Assembly: GCA_023264995.1 (NCBI GenBank)
Contig: JAHFUR010000022.1
Coordinates: 1 to 64,000, forward strand
Direction of reading: 5' to 3'
Source of the DNA: Acidimicrobiia bacterium
Lineage (GTDB): Bacteria; Actinomycetota; Acidimicrobiia; Acidimicrobiales; AC-14
DNA length: 64,000 nt
Shown here: positions 6,080-33,884 of the stretch, one piece after another
How the letters are laid out: the number at the start of each line of letters is the position of its first letter
How positions within the stretch are numbered: position 1 is the first letter of the stretch
Made by a program: the position numbers and the translations under genes
The notes under the pieces: generated by a model
What the model was told of the DNA's origin: nothing
Databases searched by the model: none
What the model saw: only the letters and a program-made list of their open reading frames with translations

Positions 6080-6153
6080 CGCACTCTCCCCCGAATGACG
6101 CGTTCTGGCCGAGCTACGGGCCGAGCCAGCATGCCCGGCGGTCTCGTGAAGCC

Positions 6154-6212
6154 CCAGCACCTTTGTCTGCGCCCTCGGCAGGATTCGAACCTGCGACACA
6201 CGGTTTAGGAAA
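6154..6212. repeat. Left attachment repeat (truncated tRNA-Arg 3' end)
   Basis: 59 bases identical to 33826-33884. Bases 6170-6212 correspond to tRNA positions 73 down to 31 on the minus strand (anticodon stem/loop through acceptor), followed by 16 bases of 3' flank. The 5' half of the tRNA is absent, so this copy cannot fold into a tRNA. It marks where the original 3' end was displaced on integration, with crossover at or near the anticodon loop. Confidence 0.9.
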
Positions 6213-6576: not shown

Positions 6577-6609
6577 CTCTCCTGTTCTATCCTGTCAGGA
6601 GAGAACAGG
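6577..6609 (+). promoter_or_regulatory. Overlapping inverted repeats, probable operator of the RES/Xre operon
   Basis: Two perfect 8-base inverted repeats interleave: CTCTCCTG (6577-6584) with CAGGAGAG (6596-6603), and CCTGTTCT (6581-6588) with AGAACAGG (6602-6609). They end at the Shine-Dalgarno AGGAGG that precedes ATG 6620. The HTH antitoxin is the obvious candidate binder. The choice between the two symmetric sites could act as a switch. Confidence 0.6.
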
Positions 6610-6619
6610 AGGAAGATCA

Positions 6620-10087: not shown

Positions 10088-10093
10088 CCCGGG

Positions 10094-10855: not shown

Positions 10856-10863
10856 TGTGCGCG

Positions 10864-11168: not shown

Positions 11169-11246
11169 GTTCAACCCTCTTTCGCGTAGAGCCACCAAAT
11201 GGCAAGAGGGATCCACGCGGTCAGTCGCTCGGGCGGGGACCGTGCG

Positions 11247-14200
11247 TCAAGCGAGAACCTGGACAAGTTCGCCGATGACGGCGATCTCGCCGTCCTCGAC
11301 GTTCGTGAGAATGATGGGCTCGAACTCACGGTTCAAGGGCTGCAGCTCGACCGTTCCGACGATCTCACCGTCAACCGTTCGCTTGGCGCTCTGATATCGC
11401 TTTACCGTATAGGACCCGCCGTTCTCCGGGTCAGCTATGTCCCGGTGCTGGGCGAGCACGATCTTGCCTCCTCGCGATCCGGCGCCGACGCGACGGAAGA
11501 TGCAGTAGGCGCGATCAGGGATTCGAGGCTCCATCGAGCGCCCCATGACCTGGGTCACGAACATCAATTCGTCGAGCTTGCCGACACCGGCAACGCCGGA
11601 CACGTCGATCCACCCTTGGGCCTCAACTTCGTGCCCATCGCCGAAGTAGCCGGCCGCGGCCTGAAGCGAGTACACGGGGAGATGTGTTGTGAAGCGATCC
11701 TCGGGCTCCACCTGCTCCTTCGTCTCGAGTGCACGCAGCGACACCAGGGCAGCGCCGGCGACAGGCTCGATGAGCTCAAGGGGGTTGTCTCCGAACGCGT
11801 AGTCGACGTCGATTGCCTTATAGTGGGCTTCGCCGAAGCGGATCTTCCAACCCTCGGTCTCCCACTGGAGCTTCTCAATGTCGGAGCTGCCTTTGGTCTC
11901 GCGCACCAGGTACAACCGACGCCCAGCCGCCTCGTCACGAACGAATGCCCAGTCGGGGTTGTAGTTCCCGAGCGGCGTAGAGACCTTGTACCAATCGGGG
12001 AGCTTCAGGAAGAGCGGTACGTCCCTTCGCCCGTCGAGGAACAGGGCGAACCTCGCCTCGACCTCGGAGTCACACACGATCATGTCGGCGACGCTGTTTG
12101 CCACCGGCACCACACGTGGCGCCACCGTCTCGTCCTGGTGGCGGTCGCGGAACATCGACGCCGGCCAGGAGTCGCCGGTCGGTGTGTACACGATGTCATC
12201 GGTGAGCTCTTCGTAGAGCGCGCGGTTCATGCAGTCGGCCACCTGGTCGATGAAGACGGCGGGGTTCGCCTTCACGTCGTCGAGTCGATCGCATGCTTTG
12301 AGAATCCGCACGATCGTCGCCCGGCTCAGCGGCAGCCTCCGGCACAGCTCACGAACGACGTCAGGGATTTGGATGGCTGCCTCGGACTCGATCGTGCCGA
12401 GATCGATGCCACCCCCCCCGCCGAGGCCGGCGGCGCCGACGGTCACCACATCCTTCGAGAGATGGAACTTCGCCTTCTCGACCTTGGGCATTTTGTTGAT
12501 TCGACGAACCGCCGCAGCAACGACGGCACCGGTACCGAAGGCCACCCGGTACGAGGTCCGCAGGGAGATCCGCTCCCAGAGGTCGGTGAAGGCCGACGAC
12601 TTGAGCACATTGGCCCCGAGGTGCACGACCTTCTTCTCGCGCATATTCACGATCCGACCCGTGAAGGTGACGCCGGTCTCCTCCTCGATCTCCTTCTGAA
12701 GCTGAGCGGCGAACGACGAGAACGACTCCTTCGCCACGACAGTGAGCAGGTTCACCGCCTCGAGATGGCAGCGGTCGCCGTTCGTCATCACGGGCAGCCG
12801 AAGCCCGCGTCCGACCTGCTGGCGTTTCCGCATCACTGACTTGCCCTCTTGCAGGTTGCAGATGGTGAAGACATTCGGGTTGTCCCAACCCTCCGCCAGC
12901 GCCGAGTGGCTGAAGATGAAGCGAAGCGGCTCCTCGAAGCCGAGCAGTTCCTCCTTGCGCCGCATGATCCGTTCGAACGCGTCGGTGGCATCCTTGGAGT
13001 CAGCCTTCGCCTCCTTCGGCACGCCCCTCGCCTCGGCGAAGTAGCCGGCGTGGGCGTTCTCGACGGGCGGCAGCCTCGTAGCCACTGCTCGGAACCGAGC
13101 ATCGTTGCGAAGCGCCTCGTACTCCTCGACGAACCACCGGCGGAGCTTGGAGCCCTCGGGGTGGTAGTCGGCGACATGCTCGATGAAGAACAACGTCAAG
13201 GGTTTCATCGGCGCGGCGATCTGGCCCCGCTTCTCGAGGAGCAGCAGCTGGAGCTCCTTCTCGAAGTGGCTGACGATGGCCTGTCGAAGCATCAGCCGCT
13301 GCTGCTGGTCGTCGGTCTCGGAGCTCGTCGACCCGGCCGAGATGCGCCAGCCGTTGGCGAAGTCCACCACCCCCTTATCCGCAAGGATGTCCTCGACGAC
13401 CCAGCCGGCGTACACCTCGCGATGACCGCTAAGGTCGAAGAGGTCGTCGTCTTTCCGCAGCGTAATCTGCGTGAGCCTCGTTCCTTGCCTCGTCGCCCTG
13501 TGGATCCTGGCAGTCGCGGTTACGGACCCCGGCTGCGCGTTGATCTTCACGACATCGACGAAGGCTTCGTTGAGATCCTCGTCCTTCGTGAGGGAGAAAA
13601 CGCCGATGCGCTTAACCAGCCGTTGGTTGTAGGCGTCGACAGGCGTGAGCCGGTGGACAAGGTGCGCGCCCTCGGGTGGAGTGGCCGAGTACCCCACGCG
13701 GAAGAGTGGCTGGAGAGCGTCCACCGCCGGCACCTGCGTCGGACCGTCGAGGCTCTGGGGTTCGTCCATCACCACGACGGGCCGGCACGCTCGCAGGAAC
13801 TCGATCGGGGCATAGCCGTTGAGGGCATCGGTTCGCCGATGGATGAGGCGGTTGTTCGCGTCGCCGGTCATCGCCGCGATATTGATCACCATGATCTGGA
13901 GGTGCGCCGCAGTGGCGAACTGGCGGACGCGTCCAGGTGCGCTGCCGTCGTACACGTGGTGGTCGTACTGCAACCCGTCGTAGAGCTCCCGGATGTGATC
14001 CCGCAGCAGTTTGAGGCTGTTGAGCACACCCTCGCGGATAGCGACGCTCGGTACGACGATCACGAACTTCCGGAACCCGTACTTCAGGTGCAGCTCCGCT
14101 ATCGTGCGAAGGTAGACGTAGGTCTTCCCGGTGCCCGTCTCCATCTCGACCTTGAACTGGACCGGCATCTCACCATCGGCGACATCGCGTCGCAGGAGGT

Positions 14201-14462
14201 CGCTGATCGACGGCACCTCGGACCCGTCCTCCAGCATGACGGGACGGTCCTGGACCCGACGGAGGCTTCTCATGACGGTCTCCGCTGTCAGCTGTAGCGA
14301 GTTCCCGAACACGAGCTCCTCAAAGAGCGCTCCATCCTCGGCGAGACTGGCCATGCCGAGCCCCTGCTCTAGCGACTCCTGCCCGGCGAAGAGCTCGACC
14401 ACGGCATCGATCGCGTCGCGCTGGAACTGCTGGTTCGGGTCATACCGGATCGGGACGGCCAT
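11247..14462 (-). CDS. res: Type III-like restriction helicase-nuclease (Res) fused to an S24/LexA-type protease domain
   Basis: A 1071-residue fusion. Residues 1-about 600 are an SF2 helicase: Walker A METGTGKT (107-114), DEPQ box (233-236), GYSATPP and QQVGRGLRLP. A Res-type PD-(D/E)xK nuclease follows: NYNPDWAF, then LVRETKGS. Residues 929-1071 add a complete S24 protease: VYSLQAAAG as possible Ala-Gly cleavage site (937/938), nucleophile Ser976 in GRSMEP, general-base Lys1021 in SYTVKRYQS, and an UmuD-like end ILTNVEDGEIAVIGELV. The first base of ATG overlaps the Mod stop. Res cuts unmodified DNA in type III systems. The protease tail suggests control by damage-induced self-cleavage, which is inference. 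Confidence 0.85.
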   Translation of the reverse strand: MAVPIRYDPNQQFQRDAIDAVVELFAGQESLEQGLGMASLAEDGALFEELVFGNSLQLTAETVMRSLRRVQDRPVMLEDGSEVPSISDLLRRDVADGEMPVQFKVEMETGTGKTYVYLRTIAELHLKYGFRKFVIVVPSVAIREGVLNSLKLLRDHIRELYDGLQYDHHVYDGSAPGRVRQFATAAHLQIMVINIAAMTGDANNRLIHRRTDALNGYAPIEFLRACRPVVVMDEPQSLDGPTQVPAVDALQPLFRVGYSATPPEGAHLVHRLTPVDAYNQRLVKRIGVFSLTKDEDLNEAFVDVVKINAQPGSVTATARIHRATRQGTRLTQITLRKDDDLFDLSGHREVYAGWVVEDILADKGVVDFANGWRISAGSTSSETDDQQQRLMLRQAIVSHFEKELQLLLLEKRGQIAAPMKPLTLFFIEHVADYHPEGSKLRRWFVEEYEALRNDARFRAVATRLPPVENAHAGYFAEARGVPKEAKADSKDATDAFERIMRRKEELLGFEEPLRFIFSHSALAEGWDNPNVFTICNLQEGKSVMRKRQQVGRGLRLPVMTNGDRCHLEAVNLLTVVAKESFSSFAAQLQKEIEEETGVTFTGRIVNMREKKVVHLGANVLKSSAFTDLWERISLRTSYRVAFGTGAVVAAAVRRINKMPKVEKAKFHLSKDVVTVGAAGLGGGGGIDLGTIESEAAIQIPDVVRELCRRLPLSRATIVRILKACDRLDDVKANPAVFIDQVADCMNRALYEELTDDIVYTPTGDSWPASMFRDRHQDETVAPRVVPVANSVADMIVCDSEVEARFALFLDGRRDVPLFLKLPDWYKVSTPLGNYNPDWAFVRDEAAGRRLYLVRETKGSSDIEKLQWETEGWKIRFGEAHYKAIDVDYAFGDNPLELIEPVAGAALVSLRALETKEQVEPEDRFTTHLPVYSLQAAAGYFGDGHEVEAQGWIDVSGVAGVGKLDELMFVTQVMGRSMEPRIPDRAYCIFRRVGAGSRGGKIVLAQHRDIADPENGGSYTVKRYQSAKRTVDGEIVGTVELQPLNREFEPIILTNVEDGEIAVIGELVQVLA

Positions 14463-16345
14463 CAGACCGTCTTCATCGTGACGCCGAGCTCGCGGGCTCG
14501 GGTGAATGCATTGACCTTCACCGAGTCTCGACTGGCGAAACCATCCTCCAGAAACACGAGGACTCGTGACTCAAGTGACAGGGCAGCCTCGATCGTCTCG
14601 TCAGCCAACGCCGGCGACAGGACGACGAGAACGCCGTCCGCCCCGACTGTCCACGCCGCACCAGCCTTGGTCCGCTGCCATGGTGCGTCCAGCCGAATCC
14701 CCTCCTTGATCAGGATTTCGGCCGCCAATGCCTCTATCCGCAGCGCGGAGTCCACCAGCGTTGACTCACTCAGGCTGAATAGACCTTCTGCCTCGGTCGG
14801 CGTAGATGCCGTGAAGCCGCTCCGCCCGAGTGCAAACACGCGCAAGCCCTGTTGGTCGCTGACCTCGTCCATCGCTGCCCGGAGACGGGCGTAGGTGATC
14901 TCGGAGACCGTTGAGTAACCCGCCTTGCGCGCGTTTGAATCAGTTGGTGTCGGCTCTGGCAGGTTGACCGAAAGGCATCGACGACGACCGCCGTCTGTCC
15001 GGTTGAGCCCGAGTACCGCGTGTCCCGTCGTCCCGGACCCAGCGAAGAAGTCAAGGACCACGTCATCGCGCCCCACCGAGTACTCAAGGATCCGAGTCAA
15101 CAACCCGAGAGGTTTGGGGTTGTCGAACACCCTTCCGCCCAACAGCTTCTTCACCTCAAGGCCGCCGGCCTCGTTTGCGAATTCAGATCCGTCCCAGAAC
15201 GTCTTGGGTGTCGCGCGGCGCTGCTGGCCGTCCCGCTCAAGATAGTCGACTTGGAACACGTCCCATCGCCCGAGACTTCCGACCTGTCGTCCCTTCAGCT
15301 CGTTCAGACGAGCCTGTGCCGTGGAGGAACCCCAACGCCATCGTCCGTCAGAACCGTCGGACAGCCTTGGGACGACTTCGATCTTGTGAGCAGGATCCCG
15401 CACCAACGTGACCGACCCTGAGGCCTCGGAGACGTAGAACGGGTAGTACATGGACGGCCGGTCAGATCGTTTGGCGTTCGATCCGCGCTTCCGGAGCCCC
15501 TGCAGTCGGTAGCGATTGCCGTTCCCGTCGGTCTCCGGATAGTCGTCAAGATATTCCGCCGGGAGCGGCACACCTCGCGGCACGAAGTCATTTCGCTTGT
15601 ACCCGAGCAGATAGTTGTGCGCTGTTGCGAAGAACTTGTCGTCGCTGCGACCCTTGAGATTGCTTACAACCGTCACACATCCCAGGAAGTTCTCGGGTCC
15701 AAATACCTCGTCCATGACAAGCCGGAGATTCTGGACCTCGTTGTCGTCGATGGAAACGAATATCGCGCCATCTTGGGTCAAGAGGTTCCGTGCGAGAACT
15801 AGCCGCGGATACATCATTGACAGCCATCCGCTGTGGCGCCGACCAAGGGTGTCCGCAGAGGCTGCGGTTCGGTTCCCCTCCTCATCGAGCTGCCCGGTGT
15901 ACTCGAGGTAGCCGCGAAGACCGTCGGTGAAGTCGTCTCGGTAAACAAAGTCGTTACCGGTGTTGTATGGAGGATCAATGTAGATCAGCTTGACCTGGTC
16001 GTTGTAGGCCTTCTGCAGGAGCTTCAGGACCTCTAGGTTGTCGCCCTCGATGAACACGTTCTGGGCGGTGTCGAAGTCGACCGACCTCTCGAGATCGGGG
16101 ACGAGCGTTCCCCTACTGGGCGTGAGGAGCGAGCGGAGCGCCTCCTGCTTGCCAGCCCACATCAGCCCGAAGCGCTCGCGCCCATCGGTCGGTGCGGCCA
16201 CCGGGATGTCGAGCAGCTCGCCGAGACGGGTGGCATCGAGCACGCCGTCGGCGATCACGCCGGGAAAGAGGTCTTCGAGCGACTCTCGGTTTATGGCTGC
16301 GATTTCGGGTGTCGAGAGGTCCACCTTCTGCGGCTGATCGATCAT
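14462..16345 (-). CDS. mod: Type III (beta-class) DNA adenine methyltransferase Mod
   Basis: A 627-residue N6-adenine methyltransferase. Catalytic motif IV DPPYNTGNDF comes before the SAM-binding motif I DFFAGSGTTGHAV, the beta-class order used by type III Mod proteins. The central variable region (about 250-430) should be the target-recognition domain and also contains GRRHSGWLSMMYPRL. ATG 16345 begins MIDQPQKVDLSTPEIA; the longer frame to 16435 runs into the divergent promoter and lacks similarity. The stop overlaps the start of res by one base, so mod and res form one operon. Mod modifies one strand of an asymmetric site that cannot be predicted from sequence. Confidence 0.9.
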   Translation of the reverse strand: MIDQPQKVDLSTPEIAAINRESLEDLFPGVIADGVLDATRLGELLDIPVAAPTDGRERFGLMWAGKQEALRSLLTPSRGTLVPDLERSVDFDTAQNVFIEGDNLEVLKLLQKAYNDQVKLIYIDPPYNTGNDFVYRDDFTDGLRGYLEYTGQLDEEGNRTAASADTLGRRHSGWLSMMYPRLVLARNLLTQDGAIFVSIDDNEVQNLRLVMDEVFGPENFLGCVTVVSNLKGRSDDKFFATAHNYLLGYKRNDFVPRGVPLPAEYLDDYPETDGNGNRYRLQGLRKRGSNAKRSDRPSMYYPFYVSEASGSVTLVRDPAHKIEVVPRLSDGSDGRWRWGSSTAQARLNELKGRQVGSLGRWDVFQVDYLERDGQQRRATPKTFWDGSEFANEAGGLEVKKLLGGRVFDNPKPLGLLTRILEYSVGRDDVVLDFFAGSGTTGHAVLGLNRTDGGRRRCLSVNLPEPTPTDSNARKAGYSTVSEITYARLRAAMDEVSDQQGLRVFALGRSGFTASTPTEAEGLFSLSESTLVDSALRIEALAAEILIKEGIRLDAPWQRTKAGAAWTVGADGVLVVLSPALADETIEAALSLESRVLVFLEDGFASRDSVKVNAFTRARELGVTMKTV

Positions 16346-16419: not shown

Positions 16420-19164
16420 GTGACGGACGGGGCACCCGGCGACATCCCGGTTCTGGAGGGTGAGGCCGCAGCAGCCGTCGCTCATCGCGGTTCGCATGTG
16501 CAGATCATCGCGGCCGCAGGAGCTGGCAAGACAGAGGTCGTATCCCAACGCGTCACGTCGCTGCTTCAGGCCGAGCCACCCGAGAGCATCGTGGCGTTCA
16601 CGTTCACGGATAAGGCTGCGGCGGAGCTCAAGGAACGCATCCGGCGGCGGGTCGCCGCCACGCTCGGCGAGGGTGCCACCGACCAGCTCGGCCGGCTGTT
16701 CGTGGGTACGATCCATGCCTACTGCTTCCGCCTCCTGCAATCCCACGTTCCGCGCTACGAGACGTACACCCCGCTGGACTCGAACCAGCTCGTCAACTTC
16801 CTCTACCGGGAGGGAACCCAGCTCAAACTGAAGCAGCGGTTCGGGGCCGGAAAGCTCTTCCAGGGCATCGACAACTTCCTGCGCAGCGTCGACGTTGTCG
16901 AAAACGAGCTGATCGATCCGTCGGGTCTACCCAACGGCGAGTTCCGCACGACGCTCCTCGACTACTACGAGCGGCTCGACTCGTACCGGTTCATGTCCTT
17001 CGGGACCCAGATCGTGCGAGCCGTCGAGGCGCTCCACGATCCCGAGGTGCATCGGCGAGTCACCTCCGAGCTCCGCCACTTGATCGTCGACGAGTACCAG
17101 GACGTCAACCCGGCCCAGGAACGCCTTGTCGCCCGGCTTGCGAAGCCCGAAGGGTCAGCAGACCTCGTCGTGGTGGGCGACGACGACCAGGCGATCTACC
17201 AGTGGCGCGGTTCGAACGTCGACAACATCGTGAGCTTCGTCGACCGCTACCACGGCGTCGCTCAATTCCGCTTGCTCGCGAACCGCCGATCCCGCGCCCC
17301 GATCGTCCAGCTAGCAAACCAGTTCGCCCAGTCAATTCCAGGACGCTTGGACAAGGAGATGGGCCCCGACCGCGTGGAGGACGGCCCCGCCGTGTCGATC
17401 GCGATCGGTCACCAGGACGAGCAAACCGAGGCCGACGCCCTCGCCGTCGACGTCGTCGCCCTCCACGATCAAGGCGTCCCGTACCGGGACATCGCGATCC
17501 TGGTGCGAGGCAAGGTCGCCTACTCCTGCATCCTCGACGCGCTGGAGACCTATGGCGTACCCGTGCAGCCTGGCGGCCGATCCGGACTCTTCGAGCAACC
17601 GGAAGCTGCGGTCTTCGGCGCCACCTATGCCTGGCTCGCCGACATCGACTGGTCAGCCCGTCGTTGGACACGCCGCGAGACGGTCTCACTCGACGACCTC
17701 GTTGGCGTCTACGAAAGCGTGTTCGCCATTGACGACGCCGGCGCCTTCGCGCTCCGCGACCATCTTGATGCGTGGAAGCCAAGGACGCTCATCGAGGACT
17801 TCGACGTCAGCCTGGTCGGAGACTTCTACCTGCTACTCGCGCTGCTCGGCGTTGCGGCGTGGGACACCAGCGACGAGTTGACGCGCAACCGGCTCGGAAC
17901 TGTCGCCCGCTTCGCGACCGTGCTCGGCGACTACGAGGGTGTGGCTCGTCGATCCCGGCGCGACACTGCCAACCCGGGGGAACAGGTCGGGGGCGCCATC
18001 GGCAGCGAGTGGTTTTACCGGAACCTCGCGTTGCTGCTCGTCAACTACGCGATCGGCAACTACGACGACTTCGATGGTGAGGAGGATCTCGCCGCTGACG
18101 CCGTTGCCCTTGGGACGGTCCATGGCGCCAAGGGCCTCGAATGGCCGGTTGTCTTTCTGCCGTCACTGACCGACGGTCGCTTTCCGTCTAGCCGCACGGG
18201 ACAAGCCCAGACCTGGTTGGTCCCGAGGGCCATGTTCGACGCCGCTCGGTACGAGGGAACCGACGCCGACGAGCGGCGGCTCTTCTACGTGGCGCTCACG
18301 CGCGCGAGGGATTGGGTCGCGCTGTCGTCTCATCTGCGAGTCAACAAGCAAGGCCGACGACCTTCGCCCTACTTGAAGGACTGCAGCGCGTTCGCAGGCG
18401 GTGGTGGCTACCCGACGGGCGTCGATCCCAGGCGCACCGAAACGCCCGACGTCGCTGTGACCTACAGCGAGCTGGCGGCGTACCTCACATGCCCACAAAG
18501 CTACCTGCTGCGAAACCAGCTCGGCTTCCAGGCTCCGATCCGGGGGGAGATCGGTTACGGCAACGCCGTACACCACGTGATGCGGGTCATCGCCGAGCAG
18601 ACGAAGGCCAACGGAGCGCTTCCCACCCCTCGGCAGATCAACGACCTGCTCACCTTCGAGTTCTACTTGCCCTTCGCCAACAAGCCCGCGCACAAGCAGA
18701 TGCGAGAGAACGCCCGCAAGCTCGTCTTCAAGTACGTCAACGATCACCAAGACGACCTTCGGCGGACCTGGGCAACCGAGCGACCGTTCGAGCTATCCCT
18801 GCAAGGCGTGGTGGTCAGCGGTCGGGCAGACGTGATCTACGACGGCGACGAGTCACACCCGGAGAACCTCGTGATCGTCGACTACAAAACGTCGACCCGC
18901 GGATCGGTCGAACCACTCCAGCTGCAGGTCTACGTCGATGCAGGGCGACGCGAGGGCCTGACCGTCCAGGCGGCATTCATCCACGATATGGCGACGACAC
19001 AACGGCATCCCGTCGCGGTCGACGATGGAGCTGTCGGCGTCGCGGAATCGACAGTGCGCGCTGCCGCCGACGCCCTCCGGCTGCGCGACTTCACTCCAGC
19101 ACCGGAGCTGGCGAAGTGCCAGGCTTGCGACGTCCGGTTCGTGTGCAAGTCGGCACTCAGCTGA
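16420..19164 (+). CDS. UvrD-like helicase fused to a Cas4/AddB-type nuclease
   Basis: A 914-residue protein. The SF1A helicase has Walker A AAAGAGKTEVV (about 32-42), FTFTDKAAAELKERI, VDEYQDVNPAQE, GDDDQAIYQWRGS and FYVALTRARDW. From about residue 685 a PD-(D/E)xK nuclease follows: Cys691 in YLTCPQSY, GRADVIYDG, the catalytic VDYKTS (D821, K823) and CQACDVRFVC (C900, C903, C909), together forming a probable 4Fe-4S cluster as in AddB and Cas4. It likely unwinds and degrades DNA ends. GTG 16420 is preceded by TATGGT plus six bases, so it is probably leaderless. It is divergent from mod and overlaps the end of the next operon by 8 bases. Confidence 0.85.
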   Translation: MTDGAPGDIPVLEGEAAAAVAHRGSHVQIIAAAGAGKTEVVSQRVTSLLQAEPPESIVAFTFTDKAAAELKERIRRRVAATLGEGATDQLGRLFVGTIHAYCFRLLQSHVPRYETYTPLDSNQLVNFLYREGTQLKLKQRFGAGKLFQGIDNFLRSVDVVENELIDPSGLPNGEFRTTLLDYYERLDSYRFMSFGTQIVRAVEALHDPEVHRRVTSELRHLIVDEYQDVNPAQERLVARLAKPEGSADLVVVGDDDQAIYQWRGSNVDNIVSFVDRYHGVAQFRLLANRRSRAPIVQLANQFAQSIPGRLDKEMGPDRVEDGPAVSIAIGHQDEQTEADALAVDVVALHDQGVPYRDIAILVRGKVAYSCILDALETYGVPVQPGGRSGLFEQPEAAVFGATYAWLADIDWSARRWTRRETVSLDDLVGVYESVFAIDDAGAFALRDHLDAWKPRTLIEDFDVSLVGDFYLLLALLGVAAWDTSDELTRNRLGTVARFATVLGDYEGVARRSRRDTANPGEQVGGAIGSEWFYRNLALLLVNYAIGNYDDFDGEEDLAADAVALGTVHGAKGLEWPVVFLPSLTDGRFPSSRTGQAQTWLVPRAMFDAARYEGTDADERRLFYVALTRARDWVALSSHLRVNKQGRRPSPYLKDCSAFAGGGGYPTGVDPRRTETPDVAVTYSELAAYLTCPQSYLLRNQLGFQAPIRGEIGYGNAVHHVMRVIAEQTKANGALPTPRQINDLLTFEFYLPFANKPAHKQMRENARKLVFKYVNDHQDDLRRTWATERPFELSLQGVVVSGRADVIYDGDESHPENLVIVDYKTSTRGSVEPLQLQVYVDAGRREGLTVQAAFIHDMATTQRHPVAVDDGAVGVAESTVRAAADALRLRDFTPAPELAKCQACDVRFVCKSALS

Positions 19165-20470
19165 GGGGTCGGATCCGATCCTGGTCGCGGAGCGCAGTCC
19201 AGAACCGAATGTGCGAGTCATGCCCTCGCCCGACGACGTCGGGCCGGCCAGGAGCTTGTCCCGCGCTCGGCACGAAGTCGGCGAGTGTCGAACCGACGTG
19301 ATCGCGCGTCAGGACGACCAGGCCAGCCTGGTGCCGAGACGCCATGACGCACAGCCGTCCTGTCTCGAGGTCGAACGCGGATGGATTGGTCACGCCTGAG
19401 AGGGGATGTAGGACGATCATCACCGGGCGTTCCAGTCCCTGCCAACGTTCGGGCGTGTCGACCCTGATCGCACCGCTCCAGGTGGCCAACTCCTTCGCGA
19501 TGGCTGCGTTCATGATCCGGTGGCTGCTCGAAACGCCGATGTCGGCGGGCGTGAGTGACCGACCCGCGTCTCCAGCTGCGCCCAGTCGGACCGTTGTCTC
19601 CGATGTGAGGAGTTCAGCAACAACCTCGGCGACCGCTCCGGCGAGCTCGTGGTCGACCTCGAGTGGAGGGCCGTGGGTCGGGGTCGGAACGGTCAGGACC
19701 ATTGGCCGGCCGTCAGCGAGGTCGCCGAGGGGGTCGCCTCGGGCGAGGTCCACGCCGCGCGCGCCGGGCTCGACGAACGCATGAAAGTCGAAGTCGTAGA
19801 ACGGCCGTACGAAGTCGACCGACTCATGCGGAAGACGTCGGCAGGCCGGGAGAGACCCCGTGTAGCGCTCGGGTTCAAAGGAAGGCTCGGCCAGCACGAC
19901 CTCGGGTGCTGCCTCGTGAGGCGCACGCGGCGATGTCTCCCACCGGCGAACGTCGATCGTCACCACGGGAGGGATCTGGCCGGGGTCGCCGATCAACAGG
20001 AACCGCTCGCTGAGCAGCGCGCACTGCATGAGATCGGCCCAGCTCATCTGCCACGCTTCGTCGACGGCCAACAGGTCGAACGGCACCCCGACATCGGTCA
20101 AAGACCATTTCGCCGTCGTCGCGACCGTCACGCCTGGCGCAGTAGGGAGCTGCGCGGTCGCAGTCAGCCACGTGACGCTCGCGGGAAAGCCCGCCGGTGG
20201 CAACGAGTTCTTGCTCGAGAAGCGTGCAGTCGCAACGTCAGGGTGGTCGGCAGCGAATCGGAGGCAGATGTCGTCGGCCTGGCTATTGGTCTGGGCAGCC
20301 ACTGCAATCCGCTGGCCCGATCCGACCAGCCTTTTCAGCACCTCGATCAGCGTGAAGGTCTTCCCGGACCCTGGTGGCGCCTTCACCACGGCAAGGCGGC
20401 CGCTGCCGTTGAAGTGGTCGACCAGATCTTGGCGAAGCGCCATGTACTGTTCTTCGATCTCACAGCTCAC
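19157..20470 (-). CDS. SF1B (Upf1/Dna2-like) helicase
   Basis: A 437-residue single-unit SF1 helicase. Walker A is KAPPGSGKTFT (30-40), Walker B LLAVDEAWQ, motif III IGDPGQIPPVV, motif V-like DTPERWQGLERPVMIVLHP and motif VI CVMASRHQAGLVVL. The insertions typical of large UvrD proteins are missing, so it resembles the small Upf1/Dna2 class. The ATG overlaps the stop of the upstream unknown gene, making it the last gene of a three-gene operon. Its last bases overlap convergently with the UvrD-nuclease gene. Polarity and substrate are unknown. Association with a Cas4-like nuclease suggests end processing. Confidence 0.75.
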   Translation of the reverse strand: MSCEIEEQYMALRQDLVDHFNGSGRLAVVKAPPGSGKTFTLIEVLKRLVGSGQRIAVAAQTNSQADDICLRFAADHPDVATARFSSKNSLPPAGFPASVTWLTATAQLPTAPGVTVATTAKWSLTDVGVPFDLLAVDEAWQMSWADLMQCALLSERFLLIGDPGQIPPVVTIDVRRWETSPRAPHEAAPEVVLAEPSFEPERYTGSLPACRRLPHESVDFVRPFYDFDFHAFVEPGARGVDLARGDPLGDLADGRPMVLTVPTPTHGPPLEVDHELAGAVAEVVAELLTSETTVRLGAAGDAGRSLTPADIGVSSSHRIMNAAIAKELATWSGAIRVDTPERWQGLERPVMIVLHPLSGVTNPSAFDLETGRLCVMASRHQAGLVVLTRDHVGSTLADFVPSAGQAPGRPDVVGRGHDSHIRFWTALRDQDRIRPLS

Positions 20471-22035
20471 GTCGAGCTCTCCGAGATCTGCGTGACGTCG
20501 TCGACAAGCACATCGGCCGCGCCGTCATCGTCGACGATCTGCACCGGGGCCGGAGCCTTGCCGTGGGTGAGCCATGCGCCCGGGCCGTCCTTCGCAGCCC
20601 AGACGCGTTGGCTCCGGCGCAGCGTGAGGTCCGCCGCGTCAGCCATCACGAACGCGAGCTCTTGCCCGATCCACGCGTGGTCGATCGGTTTGGCGGCGAT
20701 CCCGCACGCGAGCGGCATGGTCTTTCTCGTCGTCCACTCGAGCTCGAGCTCGACCCCGACCCCGCCCTCGATCAACCGCAAAGCAGTCACCACTGCCTCG
20801 TGGCCCCTAGAGCCATAGGGAACGAGGCGGCTGCTCTCTCGGACTCGGCTCGGTGCCTCGTTTCGAAGATCGACCACCCACACCGGGACAGTCGCTTTCC
20901 CGCTCCCGAGGTTCACCACCTCCGTGACGGTTGCCACCAGTGCCCGGCCATCGGCCATCGCCTCGCGAAACAGCGCCGGGTCGTGGTGAACGAGGTGACC
21001 GTCGTATCCCTCGTCGTTTGACGCATGGATCAGGTAGCGGGACGCTGCAGAGGAACCGTGATAGTCGGTCTCGGGATGCGCGATGAAGGCCGGGCCCTGC
21101 GCCGGGTCGTTCTGGCGGAGCTCGATCCGTTGGTGCTGGAACCAGAACTCCTTGTGGGCTTGGCCGACGAGGGCGTCGACGCCGGGGTTGACGGGGAGCT
21201 TGCTCTTGGCGAGGTAGGTGTACGCCTGCTCGGTACGGTGCCAGCGCCGGTCGAGCTCGACCACGAGGACATCTCGGATGAGAGCCTCGACGTCCTGCGG
21301 CGGCGCGCCTTCACGGCGGCCTGCCTGCCATCGTTCGACCAGGTCAGCCAAGTGGTCGCGCTCGATCGACGGGTCCATGGTCGGTGAGATAGTGAGCTGT
21401 TCCGCAGCCGAGGCCGCCACGATGCGGTCATCGCGGTCCCCGTGCGTCACGAGCCATGCCAGCTGATAGCCGAGATGGGCGGTTCGGGCGTCCTGTGCGG
21501 GAAAGGCGAACGCATTCGACAGGGCGCGACTGGCGTCGACCACGTGTTGATGACCAGTCCGGCTGCAGTCACGGAACATCCACCCGGCGAGCCGTCCCAG
21601 CGCCTGAAGGATGTCCTGGTTGACCCCGCCGAACCTCGTCTGCGAGAACGTGTAGTTCAGCTGGTGGAGCATGGCGAGGTGCTGTCCGTTGGGAAGCCAC
21701 ACCTGCCGCAGTTCGTCAACGGCGGCAGCTTGTCCCACTGGGTCGTAGGTCCAGTTATGCACACGCATGTGCGACAGCAGGGCCTCGGCGAAGTTTGCGC
21801 AGAGTGCACTCACGTCGTCACGGACGCGGCCGTCAGGGACGCTTTCGACCGTGGGCTTGAACCCGACTGTGCCCCAGGCGATCCCCCACGGTCGGGACTC
21901 TCCGGCCATCCGGACGAAGGCCACGATCATCGCCCGGTCGGGCGCTACAAGCGAGTGGTGCAAGGTCTCGTACCTAGGTGTCGGGGCCCCGCCGTCCCAG
22001 GCGCTGAGCTTCAGAGCGACATCTCGGATTCTCAT
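20467..22035 (-). CDS. Unknown protein between a nuclease and a helicase
   Basis: A 522-residue protein I cannot assign to a family. It begins MRIRDVALKLSAWDGGAPTP and has a long alpha-helical central part (about 100-300). In the C-terminal half it carries His/Asp-containing segments such as HPETDYHGSSAASRYLIHAS and GYDGHLVHHDPALF, then beta-rich stretches (LVATVTEVVNLGSG, VELELEWTTRKTMPLACG). No P-loop, HEPN, HNH or transmembrane segment is visible. It overlaps both neighbours by 4 bases (ATGA), so it is translated in fixed proportion with the Cas4-like nuclease and SF1 helicase. It could be the specificity or scaffold subunit. Confidence 0.6.
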   Translation of the reverse strand: MRIRDVALKLSAWDGGAPTPRYETLHHSLVAPDRAMIVAFVRMAGESRPWGIAWGTVGFKPTVESVPDGRVRDDVSALCANFAEALLSHMRVHNWTYDPVGQAAAVDELRQVWLPNGQHLAMLHQLNYTFSQTRFGGVNQDILQALGRLAGWMFRDCSRTGHQHVVDASRALSNAFAFPAQDARTAHLGYQLAWLVTHGDRDDRIVAASAAEQLTISPTMDPSIERDHLADLVERWQAGRREGAPPQDVEALIRDVLVVELDRRWHRTEQAYTYLAKSKLPVNPGVDALVGQAHKEFWFQHQRIELRQNDPAQGPAFIAHPETDYHGSSAASRYLIHASNDEGYDGHLVHHDPALFREAMADGRALVATVTEVVNLGSGKATVPVWVVDLRNEAPSRVRESSRLVPYGSRGHEAVVTALRLIEGGVGVELELEWTTRKTMPLACGIAAKPIDHAWIGQELAFVMADAADLTLRRSQRVWAAKDGPGAWLTHGKAPAPVQIVDDDGAADVLVDDVTQISESST

Positions 22036-23102
22036 GTTTCCGTCAGTAGCCGCTGCAGGTCCGCTTCGCGATCGTCCACTGGCTCAGCCCCGCCGAGCAG
22101 TTGGATGGCACGAGTCAGCGAGGTGTCGCCTAGAACTCGCTTCACCTCCCCGCCGAGGATGATCGGATCGTCCGCCGCGCTCGCCGCGGCGTGGCATCGG
22201 GGCGCGAGATCGCAAAACGACAAACAGGACTCCGAGTAGTCGGTCTCTGCTTCCAGGACTCGCTGCACGAGGGTCGGGTTGTCGGCCGAGAAGTCATCGT
22301 CGCGAACAAGCGACTGTGCGACCTCCTCGAGGCGGAGGAAGCCCCGCTGAGCTCGAATCGCCTGATAGGTGAGGTCCTCACTCGGCCGTACCGCCGGCGA
22401 GTTCGACCCCGGCCAGGTGAATATGAGGAAGCCGTCGGTAGAGACATGGATCGTATCTGCAAGTTCGAGCGAGGCGACGGCGAGCGTCAGGGCGTGCTGA
22501 TACAGGCCAGCCTGCGCTCGGGCCGACGCGAGCTGGTGCGGGTCGGTGTGACCTCCTCGGTCCGGGAACACCTTGATCTCACCGACCCGGAGTCGAACTC
22601 TGCCCTCCTCAGCGAGGACGGCGACCACATCGATGATCAGCAGGGCCTCGGGAAGAATGACGCCTCTCGGGATCCTGACCATCGGTGCAGCTACGATCGA
22701 GGCGACGCTGGTGCGGTCGGTGGCAATGTCGGCCAACCATCGCGTGGTCTGCTCGAGCGCCTGATCGACCGTGGACACATGCCTGCCGCCGTTCATCTTC
22801 AGCCGGAGGTCGACGAACCCGGCGGAGCTGGGGGGAAGGCACCCCTTTCGCTCGAGTCCCTCCCGCAGCCGAGCAGCCTCGTCGTAGAAGAGCCCGGCCT
22901 CGAACCGGTTACCGCGAGCGATCGCAAAGGGCGACTGACCGAAGCTTGGGACGAGACCTACCTGCCTCGCTGCGGCGTCGAGCCGGACGTTGTGCACCGC
23001 CGAAAGTATGTTGGCGGCGCACGTCGGATTCTTCGCCCACTGCTCGAAGCGCCCGCGGGTGTTGCGGCGTGCTTCCTCCCTGATCTCGTCGACTTCAGGC
23101 AT
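22032..23102 (-). CDS. Cas4/AddB-like PD-(D/E)xK nuclease with Fe-S cysteines
   Basis: A 356-residue protein with the full RecB-family nuclease pattern: early Cys28, GNRFEAG (64-70), catalytic Asp158 in LLIIDVVAV, Glu175-x-Lys177 in VGEIKVF, the QxxxY motif QAGLYQHAL (197-205), and late cysteines 293, 297 and 303 in SCLSFCDLAPRC. With Cys28 these can hold a 4Fe-4S cluster as in Cas4 and AddB. No cas genes or CRISPR array are present. It is the first gene of the A-B-C operon, with a plausible Shine-Dalgarno (AGAGGAA) seven to eight bases before ATG. The likely activity is ssDNA or DNA-end cleavage together with the helicase. Confidence 0.75.
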   Translation of the reverse strand: MPEVDEIREEARRNTRGRFEQWAKNPTCAANILSAVHNVRLDAAARQVGLVPSFGQSPFAIARGNRFEAGLFYDEAARLREGLERKGCLPPSSAGFVDLRLKMNGGRHVSTVDQALEQTTRWLADIATDRTSVASIVAAPMVRIPRGVILPEALLIIDVVAVLAEEGRVRLRVGEIKVFPDRGGHTDPHQLASARAQAGLYQHALTLAVASLELADTIHVSTDGFLIFTWPGSNSPAVRPSEDLTYQAIRAQRGFLRLEEVAQSLVRDDDFSADNPTLVQRVLEAETDYSESCLSFCDLAPRCHAAASAADDPIILGGEVKRVLGDTSLTRAIQLLGGAEPVDDREADLQRLLTET

Positions 23103-23435: not shown

Positions 23436-25205
23436 CTATGTGGACGACCTCTTACGAAGTCGCCGGCTCCGGTACCACGGCTTGATCCGAACGTGCGCCG
23501 GCGGCAACGTCCCGTGGACGAGTAGCGCGTCGCCGGGACGCATCTGGCGGAGAGCCGCCGGCGGGACGAGGGGCACGCCGGTGACGCTCTGCCGATCACC
23601 GTCGTAGTAGGCCGACTGGCTGCTGAGCCGGGACGGGACGTGCTCGTCACCGAGGAGCCGGCTCAGGTACTCCAGGCCGGCGGCGTCGCTCATGCCGGCG
23701 AAGAACAGCTTGGTCAGGTGGTTGGTCAGGATGGCCTGGGACTGCTTGCCGTATGCCGCCTCGATCTGGCCGACCGACTGCCAGGCCGTCACGAGCTGCA
23801 CGCCGATCCCTGACAATGTCGAGGCCCAGGAAGGCAGCTGGTCTGGCCGCAGCGTCGCCGCCTCGTCGATCACGAGGAGCAGGGGCGGGTCGAGCGGCTT
23901 GCCGGTCTGGATGAACCGTTCGAAGGCCCGGCCGACGAGGTCGTTGAGCATGCCGCCGAGGACGGGCCGCAACCGATGTTGGTCGTTGAGGGGGATGCAG
24001 ACGTAGAGCGTGTTGTTCTTCTCCAGCAGCCAGTCGAGGTCGATCGTGCAGCTCGAAGTCGCCTTGGCCACGAGGGGATCGATCCACGGCCACACCATGG
24101 TCCGGGCCGTGGCGTAGACGCCCGACACGGTGCGGTGGTCGTTGCGCCACAGACCCTCCAGCACGAGGCTGGCGAACTCGCCGGCGGCCTTGCGCTCCGG
24201 ATCGCCGTCGCCCTTCAGCGCCCGCATCAGGGGTTGGACCTGGCCGACGTTCTCATCGATCGGCATGTCGGTCGCGACCACCCACCCGACGACGTCGGCG
24301 AAGGTCCGGTCCTTGGCGTTGGCGGCGACGATCAGGAAGGCGGCAATCAGGCTCTCGGCCATCTGCAGCCAGAAGTCGCCGCCCTCCCCGCTCGAGTCCC
24401 GCCGGGGTGCGGCCTCGGCGATCTGGCGGGCGGCCCGCACGGCGCCGCTCACCGTCTTGGCGCTGCGCAGCGGGCTCCACGTGGCGCTCTCCCGGCCGGT
24501 CACCCCGCTCGGGTCGAAGACCTTGACCTCGCCGAGGGAGCCCCGCCAGTTCCCGGTGGCATCGAGGAAGTCGTTCTTGAGCGACACCAGGATCGCCGGG
24601 TGCCGCCACTCGAACACGCCGTTGATGATGTTCGTCGTCTTGCCCGATCGACTCGGCCCCACCGGCATCACGGCGCCGGGTCCGCTGGATGACCGGCGCC
24701 GGCGCTTGATGAAGCCGACGGCCTCGGTGGCGATCAGGCGCCGGCCCACCCGGCCGAGGACGAAGCGTCCCGGCACCGGCCGCCGGATCAGCAGCGGACG
24801 CAGCTCCATCGGCTTGGCCAGCCGGCCCTGGGCGGACACGCCGGCCCGCCGGCGCTGGCCGAGTGACTCTGTCGGGTCACGGAACACCTTCCAGGCGACG
24901 AAGGCCACGCCGATGCCGGCCACGGCGGCCACGATCGTCGAGAACCAGTACAGGATCGGGCCGGGCAACTGGTCCCGTTGTTCGGGCAACCAGGCGGCGC
25001 GGGGATCGCCCATGTGGTCCCGCATGGCGAGCATGGCCTCGCCCGCCTGCTGGAACGTCGCGTGCAGGGGATGGCCGTGGGTCATGAGCGTGGCCAGTTG
25101 GGCGCCGGCCCAGGCCACCACCAGCAGTGCGATCAAGACGAATAGCGCCGCCATCCCCAGCTTCCCGAGGATGTCGTCGCCTTGTTGTTGCGCGGTCTGG
25201 TTCAC
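23436..25205 (-). CDS. VirD4/TraG-like type IV coupling protein
   Basis: A 589-residue coupling ATPase. Two N-terminal membrane segments (about 17-40 and 82-107) are followed by the motor domain with Walker A GPSRSGKT (183-190) and Walker B LLLVIDEAATL. LVTAWQSVGQIEAAYG is typical of the TraG/TraD C-terminal part. Coupling proteins hand the relaxase-DNA complex to a secretion channel at the inner membrane. Its ATG overlaps the stop of the relaxase gene (4 bases), so both are co-translated. No VirB-like channel genes are in the element, which fits mobilization by a helper. Confidence 0.85.
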   Translation of the reverse strand: MNQTAQQQGDDILGKLGMAALFVLIALLVVAWAGAQLATLMTHGHPLHATFQQAGEAMLAMRDHMGDPRAAWLPEQRDQLPGPILYWFSTIVAAVAGIGVAFVAWKVFRDPTESLGQRRRAGVSAQGRLAKPMELRPLLIRRPVPGRFVLGRVGRRLIATEAVGFIKRRRRSSSGPGAVMPVGPSRSGKTTNIINGVFEWRHPAILVSLKNDFLDATGNWRGSLGEVKVFDPSGVTGRESATWSPLRSAKTVSGAVRAARQIAEAAPRRDSSGEGGDFWLQMAESLIAAFLIVAANAKDRTFADVVGWVVATDMPIDENVGQVQPLMRALKGDGDPERKAAGEFASLVLEGLWRNDHRTVSGVYATARTMVWPWIDPLVAKATSSCTIDLDWLLEKNNTLYVCIPLNDQHRLRPVLGGMLNDLVGRAFERFIQTGKPLDPPLLLVIDEAATLRPDQLPSWASTLSGIGVQLVTAWQSVGQIEAAYGKQSQAILTNHLTKLFFAGMSDAAGLEYLSRLLGDEHVPSRLSSQSAYYDGDRQSVTGVPLVPPAALRQMRPGDALLVHGTLPPAHVRIKPWYRSRRLRKRSST

Positions 25206-27607
25206 AGGTCAACCCCTGTCGGTGCGAGGTGGTCGATGGCAGCGGTCTTGGCCCCGCTGCGGTGCAGGGCCGCCTTGAACGAGGCGACCGGGTCAAGCTC
25301 GGGCTGGGGGCCGTGGCTCAGCTCGGCCTCGGGCGCCACGAGGTAGAGCTGGTTGCTGAGCCGGCCCCGGGTCAGGCTCGTGTAGCCGGTCTCGATGGTG
25401 AAGGTGTCGTCGCCGAGGACGAAGAGCCGGTCACAGGTCGCGCCTTGGGCCTTGTGGACCGTTGCCGCGTACCCGAACGTCAGGTGGCCGGCGTCGATGT
25501 AGTCGACGGGAACGTCGACGCTCCGCCCGCGGCCGAGGTCGACCTTCAGGGCGTCCTTGGTGGCCGAGGCTACCTTGCCCCTGGTGCCATTGAGCACGCC
25601 GAGGCGGTAGTCGTTGCGCAGGGCCAGGATGTCGTCGCCCACCGCGAAGCTCAGGCCGCCGGCGTCGAGCACCTCCTCCCCCAGCTCGCCCCGGGCGGCC
25701 AGCAGCTCACGGGCCCGGCCGTTGAGGTCGGCCACCGTGGAGCGGCGGGCGGCGACCATGAGGACGTCGTCGCCACCGGCTCGGGCCTTGTACCAATCGC
25801 CCACGAGACCGTCACGAAGCTGGTCGGCGTTGTCGGCGGTGATGACGCTGCCGTGGCGCTGCATGCGGTCCATGGCCGCCTCGACGTGACCGAGGCGCAG
25901 TTCGGCCACCACGGCCCGCTCCTCGGGATCGCGCTGGCGGCGGTTCTCGGTGAGCTCGGCGTAGCCCAGGCGGTGGGCCAGGGCGGCGAACAGGCCGCCG
26001 GCGTCGATCTCCGGGAGCTGCTTCGGATCGCCGACGAGGACGACCTTCGCTCGCGCTGCCCGGGCCTCGTCGATCATGGCGGCCAGCCGGCGGGTGCCCA
26101 CCATGCCGCTTTCGTCGATCACGAGGACGCTGCGCTCGTCGAGTCGCTCGTAGCCGGTGGCCAGGCGGTTCCGGAGACGGTCGATGGTCTGGGAGGCGAT
26201 GCCGGCGCCGTTCTGCAGCTCGGCCGCGGCCCTGGCCGCCAGCGACGCGCCGAGCACCCGGTAGCCGGCGGACTCCCACGCCTCCCGGGCTGCGTCGAGG
26301 CTGAACGTCTTCCCCGTACCGGCCGGGCCAATGACAATGTCGATCGGACGCCCGGAGCCGGTGATGGCGGCGACGACCTGACGCTGGTCGGCGCCGAGGG
26401 AGGGACGGGCGTCGAGCGCGCGGTCGATGTTGTCGCGCCCGACGACGGCCGCCGGCGGAGCGGGCGACATCGCCAGCTCGACGATCCGGCGCTCCAGGGC
26501 CAGCATCTCCGGCGTCGTCCACCGGCCCTCGGCCACGGCGACCGCGTAGGGGCCGGCGAGCATGGCGTCGGCGCCCTGCTCCAGCTCGTCAAGCGACGCT
26601 CCCTGGGTGGCGGCCTGGGCGAGCGCGCGGACCACGTCACGGCGGGCGAAGGTGGCGTGCGACTCGGTCAGCAGGCCGGCTAGGTCGGCGTCGTCGACGT
26701 CGAGGACCGGGGTGCGCACCAACCGAGGCAGGGCGCCGATGTCGAGGCCGAACGGCTCGGCCCTCACTGCCCAGCGGTGGCGCAGCTCGGGCTCCGAGAC
26801 GTGCTCGTCCTTGGGGTGGCGGGTGTCGAGGGTCGCGGCCTGGGCACCCTTGGCCGACGCCGCGCCGTGCCGCTCCATGGCGGCGAGGATCTCCTGGCGA
26901 CGGTGGGAGAACTCCCGCCGCAACGCCGGCGGGACGCCGGCGACATCGGCGTGGCCCTGGGCCACCTCCTCGAACAGCAGCCCGGTCGAGCGGGCCAGCT
27001 CGTAGCGCAGAACGGCCTGGTAGACGAAGCCGGCGGTGCGGCCGTGGCGGTAGAGGTCCCGGTTGTCGAGAGCGGTCCAGCGGCCGTCGGGGCCCTCGGC
27101 CATGTTGGCGATCAGGACATGGGTGTGCAGGGCGGGATCGCCGGCCCGGCTGGTGCGGTGGCGGAAGGCGGCACCGACGAAGCCGTCGGCGTCGTACAGC
27201 TCGGTGCCCCCGTGGCCACGCCTGACGCGGCAGGCATGGCGTTCGAGGTACTCGATGGCCTGGTCGACGGCCCGGTCGTGGCAGGCGACGACCTCGGCGG
27301 CCGTGGCCTCGTCGCCCAGGCCCCAGACCAGCGAGATCGACTTCGGGGCCGACAGGGTGAGGTCCATCCCGGGCCGGCTGGCGTTCGTCGCCCGCAGCGG
27401 CTCATCGCTCCTGGGCCGCCGGCCGGCGAGGACGGCGCGCAGATCGTCGGTGCCGACTCGGCCCTCGAGACCGAGACGGTCGGCGCCCCGGCCGAGCCAC
27501 CGGCCGGGAACCTCGCCGACGTGGAGGTAGTAGTCCTCGGCGCCGGCGAGGACCTCTTCAAGGTAGTACGCCTCCTGGCCGAGGCTCAGGCGGCCGATGC
27601 TCAACAC
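25202..27607 (-). CDS. MobF (TrwC-type) relaxase with RecD-like helicase domain
   Basis: 801 residues from GTG 27607 (or TTG 27604), reading VLSIGRLSLGQEAYYLEEV. The relaxase domain has N-terminal tyrosines (AYYLEE, DYYLHVG) and the metal-binding HTHVLIANM. The C-terminal SF1 helicase has IGPAGTGKTFSL, LVIDESGMVGTRRL, VLVGDPKQLPEI and TVHKAQGATCDRLFVLGD. MobF relaxases nick oriT, stay covalently bound through Tyr and unwind the strand for transfer. The upstream extension to 27877 lacks similarity and overlaps an HTH gene, so it is rejected. Together with the coupling protein this defines the element's mobility module. Confidence 0.9.
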   Translation of the reverse strand: MLSIGRLSLGQEAYYLEEVLAGAEDYYLHVGEVPGRWLGRGADRLGLEGRVGTDDLRAVLAGRRPRSDEPLRATNASRPGMDLTLSAPKSISLVWGLGDEATAAEVVACHDRAVDQAIEYLERHACRVRRGHGGTELYDADGFVGAAFRHRTSRAGDPALHTHVLIANMAEGPDGRWTALDNRDLYRHGRTAGFVYQAVLRYELARSTGLLFEEVAQGHADVAGVPPALRREFSHRRQEILAAMERHGAASAKGAQAATLDTRHPKDEHVSEPELRHRWAVRAEPFGLDIGALPRLVRTPVLDVDDADLAGLLTESHATFARRDVVRALAQAATQGASLDELEQGADAMLAGPYAVAVAEGRWTTPEMLALERRIVELAMSPAPPAAVVGRDNIDRALDARPSLGADQRQVVAAITGSGRPIDIVIGPAGTGKTFSLDAAREAWESAGYRVLGASLAARAAAELQNGAGIASQTIDRLRNRLATGYERLDERSVLVIDESGMVGTRRLAAMIDEARAARAKVVLVGDPKQLPEIDAGGLFAALAHRLGYAELTENRRQRDPEERAVVAELRLGHVEAAMDRMQRHGSVITADNADQLRDGLVGDWYKARAGGDDVLMVAARRSTVADLNGRARELLAARGELGEEVLDAGGLSFAVGDDILALRNDYRLGVLNGTRGKVASATKDALKVDLGRGRSVDVPVDYIDAGHLTFGYAATVHKAQGATCDRLFVLGDDTFTIETGYTSLTRGRLSNQLYLVAPEAELSHGPQPELDPVASFKAALHRSGAKTAAIDHLAPTGVDL

Positions 27608-27683
27608 GACCGCCGCCCTGGGCGCGCGACGGCAGGGGGCACGCCGGTGCAAGTGTGTGGACGGCTGTTTGGGCGCGCCACGG

Positions 27684-27908
27684 CTAGCTCGCCTCCTCGG
27701 TGTCAGAGCCGTCGACGAAGGCCTCGACGGACCGGCGGGAGAAGCGCCAGCGCCCTCCGATGCGACGGACGACGACAGGGCTACGGCCCTCGCGTGCCAG
27801 CCGCCGGAGGGTGTGGGCGGTCGTGCAGAGCAGCGGTGCGACCTCTTCCGCGTCGAGCCACGGGTTCGGTCGGTCACCGTTGGGGATGGGGTTTGCGGCG
27901 TCGTTCAT
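27684..27908 (-). CDS. Excisionase/MerR-like HTH protein
   Basis: A 74-residue protein. LDAEEVAPLLCTTAHTLRRL, then AREGRSPVVVRRIGGRWRFS is the short winged HTH of the HTH_17/Xis group. Proteins of this type act as recombination directionality factors or small regulators in integrative elements. It lies 76 bases before the relaxase gene. In that gap GGGCGCGCSACGGC occurs twice in direct orientation (about 27620-27633 and 27671-27684), a possible binding site or part of oriT. Which role applies cannot be decided from sequence. Confidence 0.7.
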   Translation of the reverse strand: MNDAANPIPNGDRPNPWLDAEEVAPLLCTTAHTLRRLAREGRSPVVVRRIGGRWRFSRRSVEAFVDGSDTEEAS

Positions 27909-31942: not shown

Positions 31943-33103
31943 CTACGACTCCTCCGTCTCGTCGCCAGGCGGCCGTGAGAACGCTTTCCCGACAATCTCC
32001 GCTGCGCGTTGATCGGCGCCGGGCATGAGGTGGCTGTAGATCTTCAGCGTCGTCGAGGTGTCCCGGTGGCCGAGGCGGGCGGACACCGTGGTGATGGCCT
32101 CGCCGGCGTCGAGCAGGAGCGACGCCTGGAGGTGGCGGAGGTCGTGCAGACGGGCCTCCACGCCGACCTCTCGGCACAGCCGGCGCCAGGCCTGGCCGAT
32201 GCGGTTCGGCGGCAGAGGCTCGCTGCTGCCCGGGGACCGACGGAAGACGAAGTCGTCCGTCGAGAACTCCACGCCGGCCGCTTCGGCAAGGTCCTTTGCA
32301 CTGTCCCGCTGGGCTCGGAGCATGCGCGCCGTCTCTCCGTCGATCCGGATCCAGCGCAACGCGTGGGTCTTGGTGTCGTACACGGTGCGCCGGCCTTCGA
32401 GGTCGAGGACGGCTCGCCGGATGACCACCCGCGGAGCGTCGCCGTCGAGGTCGACGTCGGACCACTTGAGGGCGCAGACCTCGCCCCGCCGGCAGCCGGT
32501 GGCGGCGACGATCCGGAACACGATGGCGTTCTCGGGGTTCCTTGACGCCGCGGCGCGGTCGATCACACGAAGGACGTCGAAGACGGTCGGGGGGACCGTC
32601 TCGACCGAGTGCACCCGGGGCGGCGTGGCCCGCTCGATGGGGTTGCGGTCGAGCCAGCCCCAGCGCACGGCCTGGGCGAAGGCGGCGCGCAGCACGGTGT
32701 GGAACCGCAGCACCGTGGCCGGCTTCCGGCCCGTCTGCCGGGCGAGGAACCGGTACAGGTCGTCGACGACCTTCGGCGTCACCTTGGCCAGTGGCTGAGC
32801 CAGAAAGCCCGGCGGCAGCTGACGGACGAGCCGGCGGTACCCGAGGAGCGTCGACGGCGAGCGGCCGACGTTCTCGATGTGCTCCAGCCACGCGTCGAGC
32901 AGCTCGGCGACGGAGCACTTCTTGGGCTCGACCACGCCACCGTCGACCTCGGTGACGAGAACGGCAAGGGCGCTCGAGGCCTGGCGCTTCGTGCCCCGGA
33001 AAGTTCGAGTCCGGTACTGCTTCTGGCCGGTGAGCGGGTCCGCTCCGGTGAAAGCCCGCAGCTCCCAGTAGCCCGGGCGCTTCTCCCGCATCGACCCCTT
33101 CAC
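31943..33103 (-). CDS. int: Tyrosine recombinase (integrase) of the element
   Basis: A 386-residue phage-type integrase. An N-terminal AP2-like arm-binding region (GYWELRAFTGADPLTGQKQY) is followed by a SAM-like core-binding domain (about 65-160) and the catalytic domain with Arg205 (TGCRRGEV), Lys in YDTKTHALR, His320/Arg323 (LHDLRHLQAS), His346 and Tyr356 (LGHRDTSTTLKIYSH). All catalytic residues are present. It should integrate and, with a directionality factor, excise the element by recombining the 59-bp att sites at tRNA-Arg(CCT). It is located 0.7 kb from the intact tRNA, as usual for such elements. Confidence 0.92.
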   Translation of the reverse strand: MKGSMREKRPGYWELRAFTGADPLTGQKQYRTRTFRGTKRQASSALAVLVTEVDGGVVEPKKCSVAELLDAWLEHIENVGRSPSTLLGYRRLVRQLPPGFLAQPLAKVTPKVVDDLYRFLARQTGRKPATVLRFHTVLRAAFAQAVRWGWLDRNPIERATPPRVHSVETVPPTVFDVLRVIDRAAASRNPENAIVFRIVAATGCRRGEVCALKWSDVDLDGDAPRVVIRRAVLDLEGRRTVYDTKTHALRWIRIDGETARMLRAQRDSAKDLAEAAGVEFSTDDFVFRRSPGSSEPLPPNRIGQAWRRLCREVGVEARLHDLRHLQASLLLDAGEAITTVSARLGHRDTSTTLKIYSHLMPGADQRAAEIVGKAFSRPPGDETEES

Positions 33104-33825: not shown

Positions 33826-33884
33826 CCAGCACCTTTGTCTGCGCCCTCGGCAGGATTCGAACCTGCGACACACGGTTTAGGAAA
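33826..33884. repeat. Right attachment repeat, overlapping the intact tRNA
   Basis: 59 bases identical to 6154-6212. They cover tRNA positions 31-73 and 16 bases of 3' flank on the minus strand. Because the element brings its own copy of the tRNA 3' half, the gene stays functional. Confidence 0.9.

Follow-up and report, generated by a model that had tools for sequence, protein, structure and literature searches.

The window, the whole stretch of 64,000 nucleotides analysed here, carries three minus-strand genes that we call N, M and H in the order in which they are read (Table 1). As given in the initial annotation and confirmed in the list of open reading frames, they form a three-gene operon overlapping at both joints by 4 nt, ATGA at the first (N/M) as claimed and GTGA, not ATGA, at the second (M/H). 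Overlaps of this kind suggest translational coupling only, and not the fixed stoichiometry that had been read from them. The statement that no AddA lies nearby was not borne out, as a UvrD/PDDEXK_1 helicase-nuclease (U) converges on the trio from the plus strand, its end overlapping that of H by 8 bp. Next after U and divergent from it lie mod and res, adjacent Mod and Res subunits of a type III restriction-modification (RM) system.

The trio, U and the RM genes are carried by a 27.7 kb element at a tRNA-Arg gene, bounded by exact repeats of 59 bp. Attachment repeats at a tRNA, an integrase, a relaxase and a coupling protein identify it as an integrative (conjugative or mobilisable) element, and a purely chromosomal reading of the locus was ruled out by the attachment repeats. 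Near the integrase, a Fic-domain gene (31050-31439) is possibly a toxin-antitoxin partner of the element.

Table 1. Genes and boundaries of the element in the window
Feature	Position	Strand	Basis or remark
Left attachment repeat, 59 bp exact	6154..6212		identical to 33826-33884
res, type III RM restriction subunit	11247..14462	-	PADLOC REase_III E 1.5e-212
mod, type III RM methyltransferase	14462..16345	-	PADLOC MTase_III E 9e-146
U, UvrD-type SF1A helicase fused to four-Cys PDDEXK_1 nuclease	16420..19164	+	PF00580, PF13361, PF12705
H, minimal SF1B (Upf1/Dna2-type) helicase core, 437 aa	19157..20470	-	AAA_11 E 1.7e-14
M, 522-aa middle protein; ~355-469 predicted SF1B-helicase-like beta-barrel, 1-350 helical	20467..22035	-	low-confidence model
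N, putative Cas4/AddB-type Fe-S PD-(D/E)XK nuclease, 356 aa	22032..23102	-	motifs conserved in homologues
TraG/VirD4-type coupling protein	23436..25205	-	PF02534 E 4e-34
TrwC-type relaxase	25202..27877	-	PF08751 E 2.7e-83
Tyrosine integrase	31943..33103	-	PF00589 E 6e-20
Right attachment repeat	33826..33884		overlaps 3' half of tRNA-Arg (33841-33914 -)

The three products of the trio

N shows the catalytic D...ExK and QxxxY motifs (Q197, Y201) of Cas4/AddB-type nucleases together with one N-terminal and three C-terminal cysteines, as in Fe-S nucleases (C28, then C293-x3-C297-x5-C303). C28, D158, Q197, Y201, C293, C297 and C303 are present in all 36 homologues, the most distant of which share about 25% identity, and E175 and K177 in 35 of them, so that the four-Cys layout and QxxxY noted earlier can be regarded as invariant. 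Because the conserved residues over these 36 sequences are those of the nuclease and the cysteines, N is a good candidate for an Fe-S PD-(D/E)XK nuclease, an assignment made from motifs and not from a profile match. Searches of N against Pfam and NCBIfam (both at E<=1), PADLOC and PHROGs gave no match, nor did the TM0106-family model TIGR03491; a missing profile match does not exclude membership of a superfamily. The possibility that N and the nuclease of U belong to one family was dropped, as the hhalign comparison of the N profile with the U nuclease was not significant.

H is indeed the minimal SF1B helicase proposed before, with the full set of AAA_11/AAA_12 helicase motifs and a Walker A at residues 32-38. 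DNA2 and IGHMBP2 are its nearest solved structures by sequence, which places it among the motors related to Upf1/IGHMBP2/Dna2, and only partial matches to helicase motifs were obtained with the components of PADLOC-DB 2.0.0. The protein starts at the motor and has no 1B beta-barrel of its own; a search of the IGHMBP2 family for a barrel alignment gave no relative above the curated cut-off. PDB entry 9kwf was discarded as a relative of H, a paper citing that code being concerned with acidophile helicases.

No family was found for M in Pfam, NCBIfam or PADLOC, in agreement with its first description as a 522-residue protein without recognisable family. The remote-homology check suggested for it gave the same result, as profile searches of Pfam and PDB with 18 M sequences led to nothing credible and to no sequence match with any helicase 1B domain. 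Structure prediction was informative in part: the AlphaFold model from four sequences was poor overall (mean pLDDT 44), and its best region (355-465, mostly ~60-78) was a beta-barrel. First fold matches of this region were the barrels of Setx, Sen1 and IGHMBP2 (Z 8.8-7.7), scores barely above those of the unrelated barrels LumP (7.7) and riboflavin synthase (7.5), with the Dna2 barrel at Z 6.4 in the same low-confidence model. When the C-terminal half of M was modelled alone, the model was worse and gave few matches (Z 2.8), with Sen1 again first. A C-terminal barrel in M is therefore likely as far as the model goes, and it lends nothing to the earlier idea of a specificity subunit, the C-terminus resembling a helicase beta-barrel instead. 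The barrel region aligns with residues 37-140 of IGHMBP2 and 461-568 of Dna2, stretches that directly precede the motor in both cases. Since H begins at the motor, the gene order N-M-H would then, if the barrel is right, reproduce the domain order of Dna2 across three genes.

Relatives of the trio and their neighbours

Relatives were collected by searching Actinomycetota genomes and by scanning contigs with two short peptide patterns, and the taxonomic range given here is thus a minimum. The order N-M-H recurs in more than 30 loci, most joints having short coupled overlaps (-4 nt across most loci), and the arrangement is therefore not due to chance; as judged from the homologues, N-M-H is the unit. 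Four types of loci, A to D, were distinguished. In a tree of H, types A and B stand apart from C and D, with A and D each forming one group.

Type A comprises the window and six further loci (L004, L005 and L009-L012), and N, M, H and U are found in all seven. The same type III RM system is present in five of these, while L010 has a type ISP RM system with GmrSD and L009 has GmrSD. With this linkage, the stand-alone antiphage system first proposed is not supported. L004, L005 and L012 contain the same six genes as the window, and the 8-bp overlap of H and U is kept in six loci, mod-res being placed between H and U in L011. The catalytic and Cys residues of U are conserved in seven homologues. 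In L005, M (1304-2866) has two in-frame stops and U (4169-6913) has one, with N, H, mod and res open, reflecting either a decaying copy or assembly errors. L010 (605-21548) is an Arthrobacter defence cluster with the type ISP RM system, GmrSD, a DEDD exonuclease, N-M-H and U, followed by UvrD-like and DUF4011 helicases.

Between loci, the identity of Mod drops to 0-26% over residues ~250-400 with conserved ends, the pattern expected for an exchange of recognition domains. The C-terminus of the window Res (11247-11760) is about 165 aa longer than in its relatives from L005, L011 and L012; another genome (G089) has a similar match over the full length. Of 148 genomes of the order, three have a type A M, and a close Res is present in these three and in no other, a coincidence of P = 1.9e-6 by counting, for genomes that are not fully independent. 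U was detected in the same three genomes and in three others, in one of which it lies beside another type III-like RM system. In L115 (3925-11767), a U homologue without N-M-H overlaps a gene for a 1695-aa Sacsin/NOV_C-domain protein.

In type B, seen in two genera of one family, N-M-H is followed by a RecB-like nuclease of the TM0106 family (TIGR03491) as fourth gene of the operon, a gene that is absent from the window. Type C was revealed by a plasmid search with N, which returned distant relatives, and has an extra gene X (~256-281 aa) located 5' of N (2318-3163 in L046, 8126-8896 in L045), for which no match was found in Pfam or PADLOC. SbcCD and Wadjet accompany the trio in L046 and L047, where it is directly beside JetABCD, and SbcCD and an HA-domain helicase in L078. 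In L075 it is directly beside HmaA-HmaB of Hma, a helicase-methylase-ATPase system (PMC8565338) that has been termed BREX-related (PMC12839542). Wadjet and Hma are neighbours of the trio and not its parent systems; none of their component models is matched by N or M. L075 also encodes a 546-aa PDDEXK_1 protein (13238-14878) beside X-N-M-H; a second nuclease thus often occurs with the trio, namely U in type A, the TM0106 nuclease in type B and this protein in L075. A locus with N and M and without detectable H (L064 of G343, 9130-11999), beside a GGDEF-EAL gene, is a single case in which the motor has possibly been lost. Searches of plasmids and phages gave no relatives of the window M, viral contigs contained none of N, M or H, and the type C M had none in phages.

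Type D occupies a constant place in the chromosome of a Streptomyces-like genus, with M in 141 of 150 species and synteny in the 11 loci inspected, in none of which an RM system was found beside the trio. The genus is most likely Streptomyces, because the nearest named records of the type D M family are Streptomyces plasmids. H of this branch is about 32% identical to H of the window. The objection named earlier, a housekeeping locus outside mobile elements, thus applies by half: the distant branch D is a fixed chromosomal locus, and the copy in the window is mobile. Likewise, the proposed inspection of neighbourhoods showed N-M-H recurring near defence systems, with the qualification that type A is bound to U and RM and that branch D is chromosomal.

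Processing of DNA ends as a possible function

Dna2 of eukaryotes is one of the closest known counterparts: it joins an Fe-S PD-(D/E)XK nuclease, a beta-barrel (predicted in the trio) and an SF1B motor in the same order, and few solved proteins are nearer to H in sequence. In contrast to Dna2, the trio consists of separate chains, M has about 350 extra residues and N has the C-x3-C-x5-C spacing, the likeness of N being one of motifs. As nuclease, barrel and motor are distributed over three ORFs, N-M-H would work like Dna2 without being a member of that family. AddAB and AdnAB also combine an Fe-S nuclease with an SF1 helicase for DNA ends, and U resembles the helicase-nuclease plan of AddA/AdnB, whereas the nuclease N stands alone and the motor of the trio is of the SF1B and not the UvrD type, the UvrD domain being found in U. 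We know of no counterpart of M in AddAB or AdnAB. None of N, M and H matched a defence component of PADLOC-DB 2.0.0 over most of its length, no description of the trio was found in an open-access literature search, and it has no name in the databases searched.

With moderate confidence we propose that N-M-H is one Dna2-like helicase-nuclease that processes DNA ends, made of three co-translated chains and here likely acting on ends produced by restriction. This retains from the initial annotation the end-processing machine whose middle subunit belongs to no recognised family, here placed on a mobile element, and the sequence data support it. In general, SF1B helicases move 5' to 3' and SF1A helicases 3' to 5'. 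We infer that the three chains form a complex on DNA ends in which H would act as the 5'-to-3' motor and N would cut single strands as the Fe-S nuclease, while M would serve as a scaffold, its C-terminal barrel taking the place of the 1B domain that H lacks. U, as a 3'-to-5' motor that brings an Fe-S nuclease of its own, would be paired with N-M-H, giving the island motors of both polarities in a RecBCD-like manner. The type III enzyme would cut unmethylated incoming DNA, N-M-H and U would then load on the cut ends and degrade them, and the mobile element would spread the set. The step after restriction is suggested by linkage, and linkage to an RM system is by itself not function in restriction, U being also found without N-M-H. 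Relatives of the trio also adjoin type ISP RM, GmrSD, SbcCD, Wadjet and Hma, systems that cut or process DNA.

Destruction of the invader might be replaced by protection of the host, with N-M-H (and U) resecting or repairing breaks that restriction or Wadjet leaves in its own DNA. The fixed locus of branch D would fit such a role, as would the type C copies adjoining SbcCD, the bacterial Mre11-Rad50; we consider it rather unlikely for the window, where the trio is of type A, a mobile type of patchy occurrence tied to RM, and several other UvrD-family proteins are already present in the host. Still less probable is an independent antiphage system with its own trigger and effector, found on the same islands as RM and other defences without depending on them: its partners do differ among the defence neighbourhoods in which the trio repeatedly occurs, but the type III RM system shared by five of the seven type A loci and the exact coincidence of close Res and type A M in the order argue against it, and defence systems are not usually core loci as in branch D. 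That the trio processes transferring or replicating DNA of the element, as its position immediately after TrwC and TraG, read from one strand, might suggest, is very improbable, since N-M-H-U is found in other loci whose inspected stretches contain no relaxase or TraG homologue, and the trio is chromosomal in branch D.

Beyond the Dna2-like end processing proposed for the window, we offer more tentatively that N-M-H may be a bacterial Dna2 divided among three chains, serving nearly all Streptomyces-like bacteria in repair. Mobile elements would have recruited it repeatedly to degrade DNA alongside different cutters (type III and ISP restriction, Wadjet, Hma), and M would be a helicase subunit of a new kind. 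If true, a three-chain member would be added to the enzymes processing DNA ends, and an unnamed locus in about 94% of the sampled species of the Streptomyces-like genus would be explained. N-M-H would be a concrete partner candidate for several DNA-cutting defence systems, and the module bears on whether the machinery that completes the destruction of cut DNA is supplied by restriction systems themselves.
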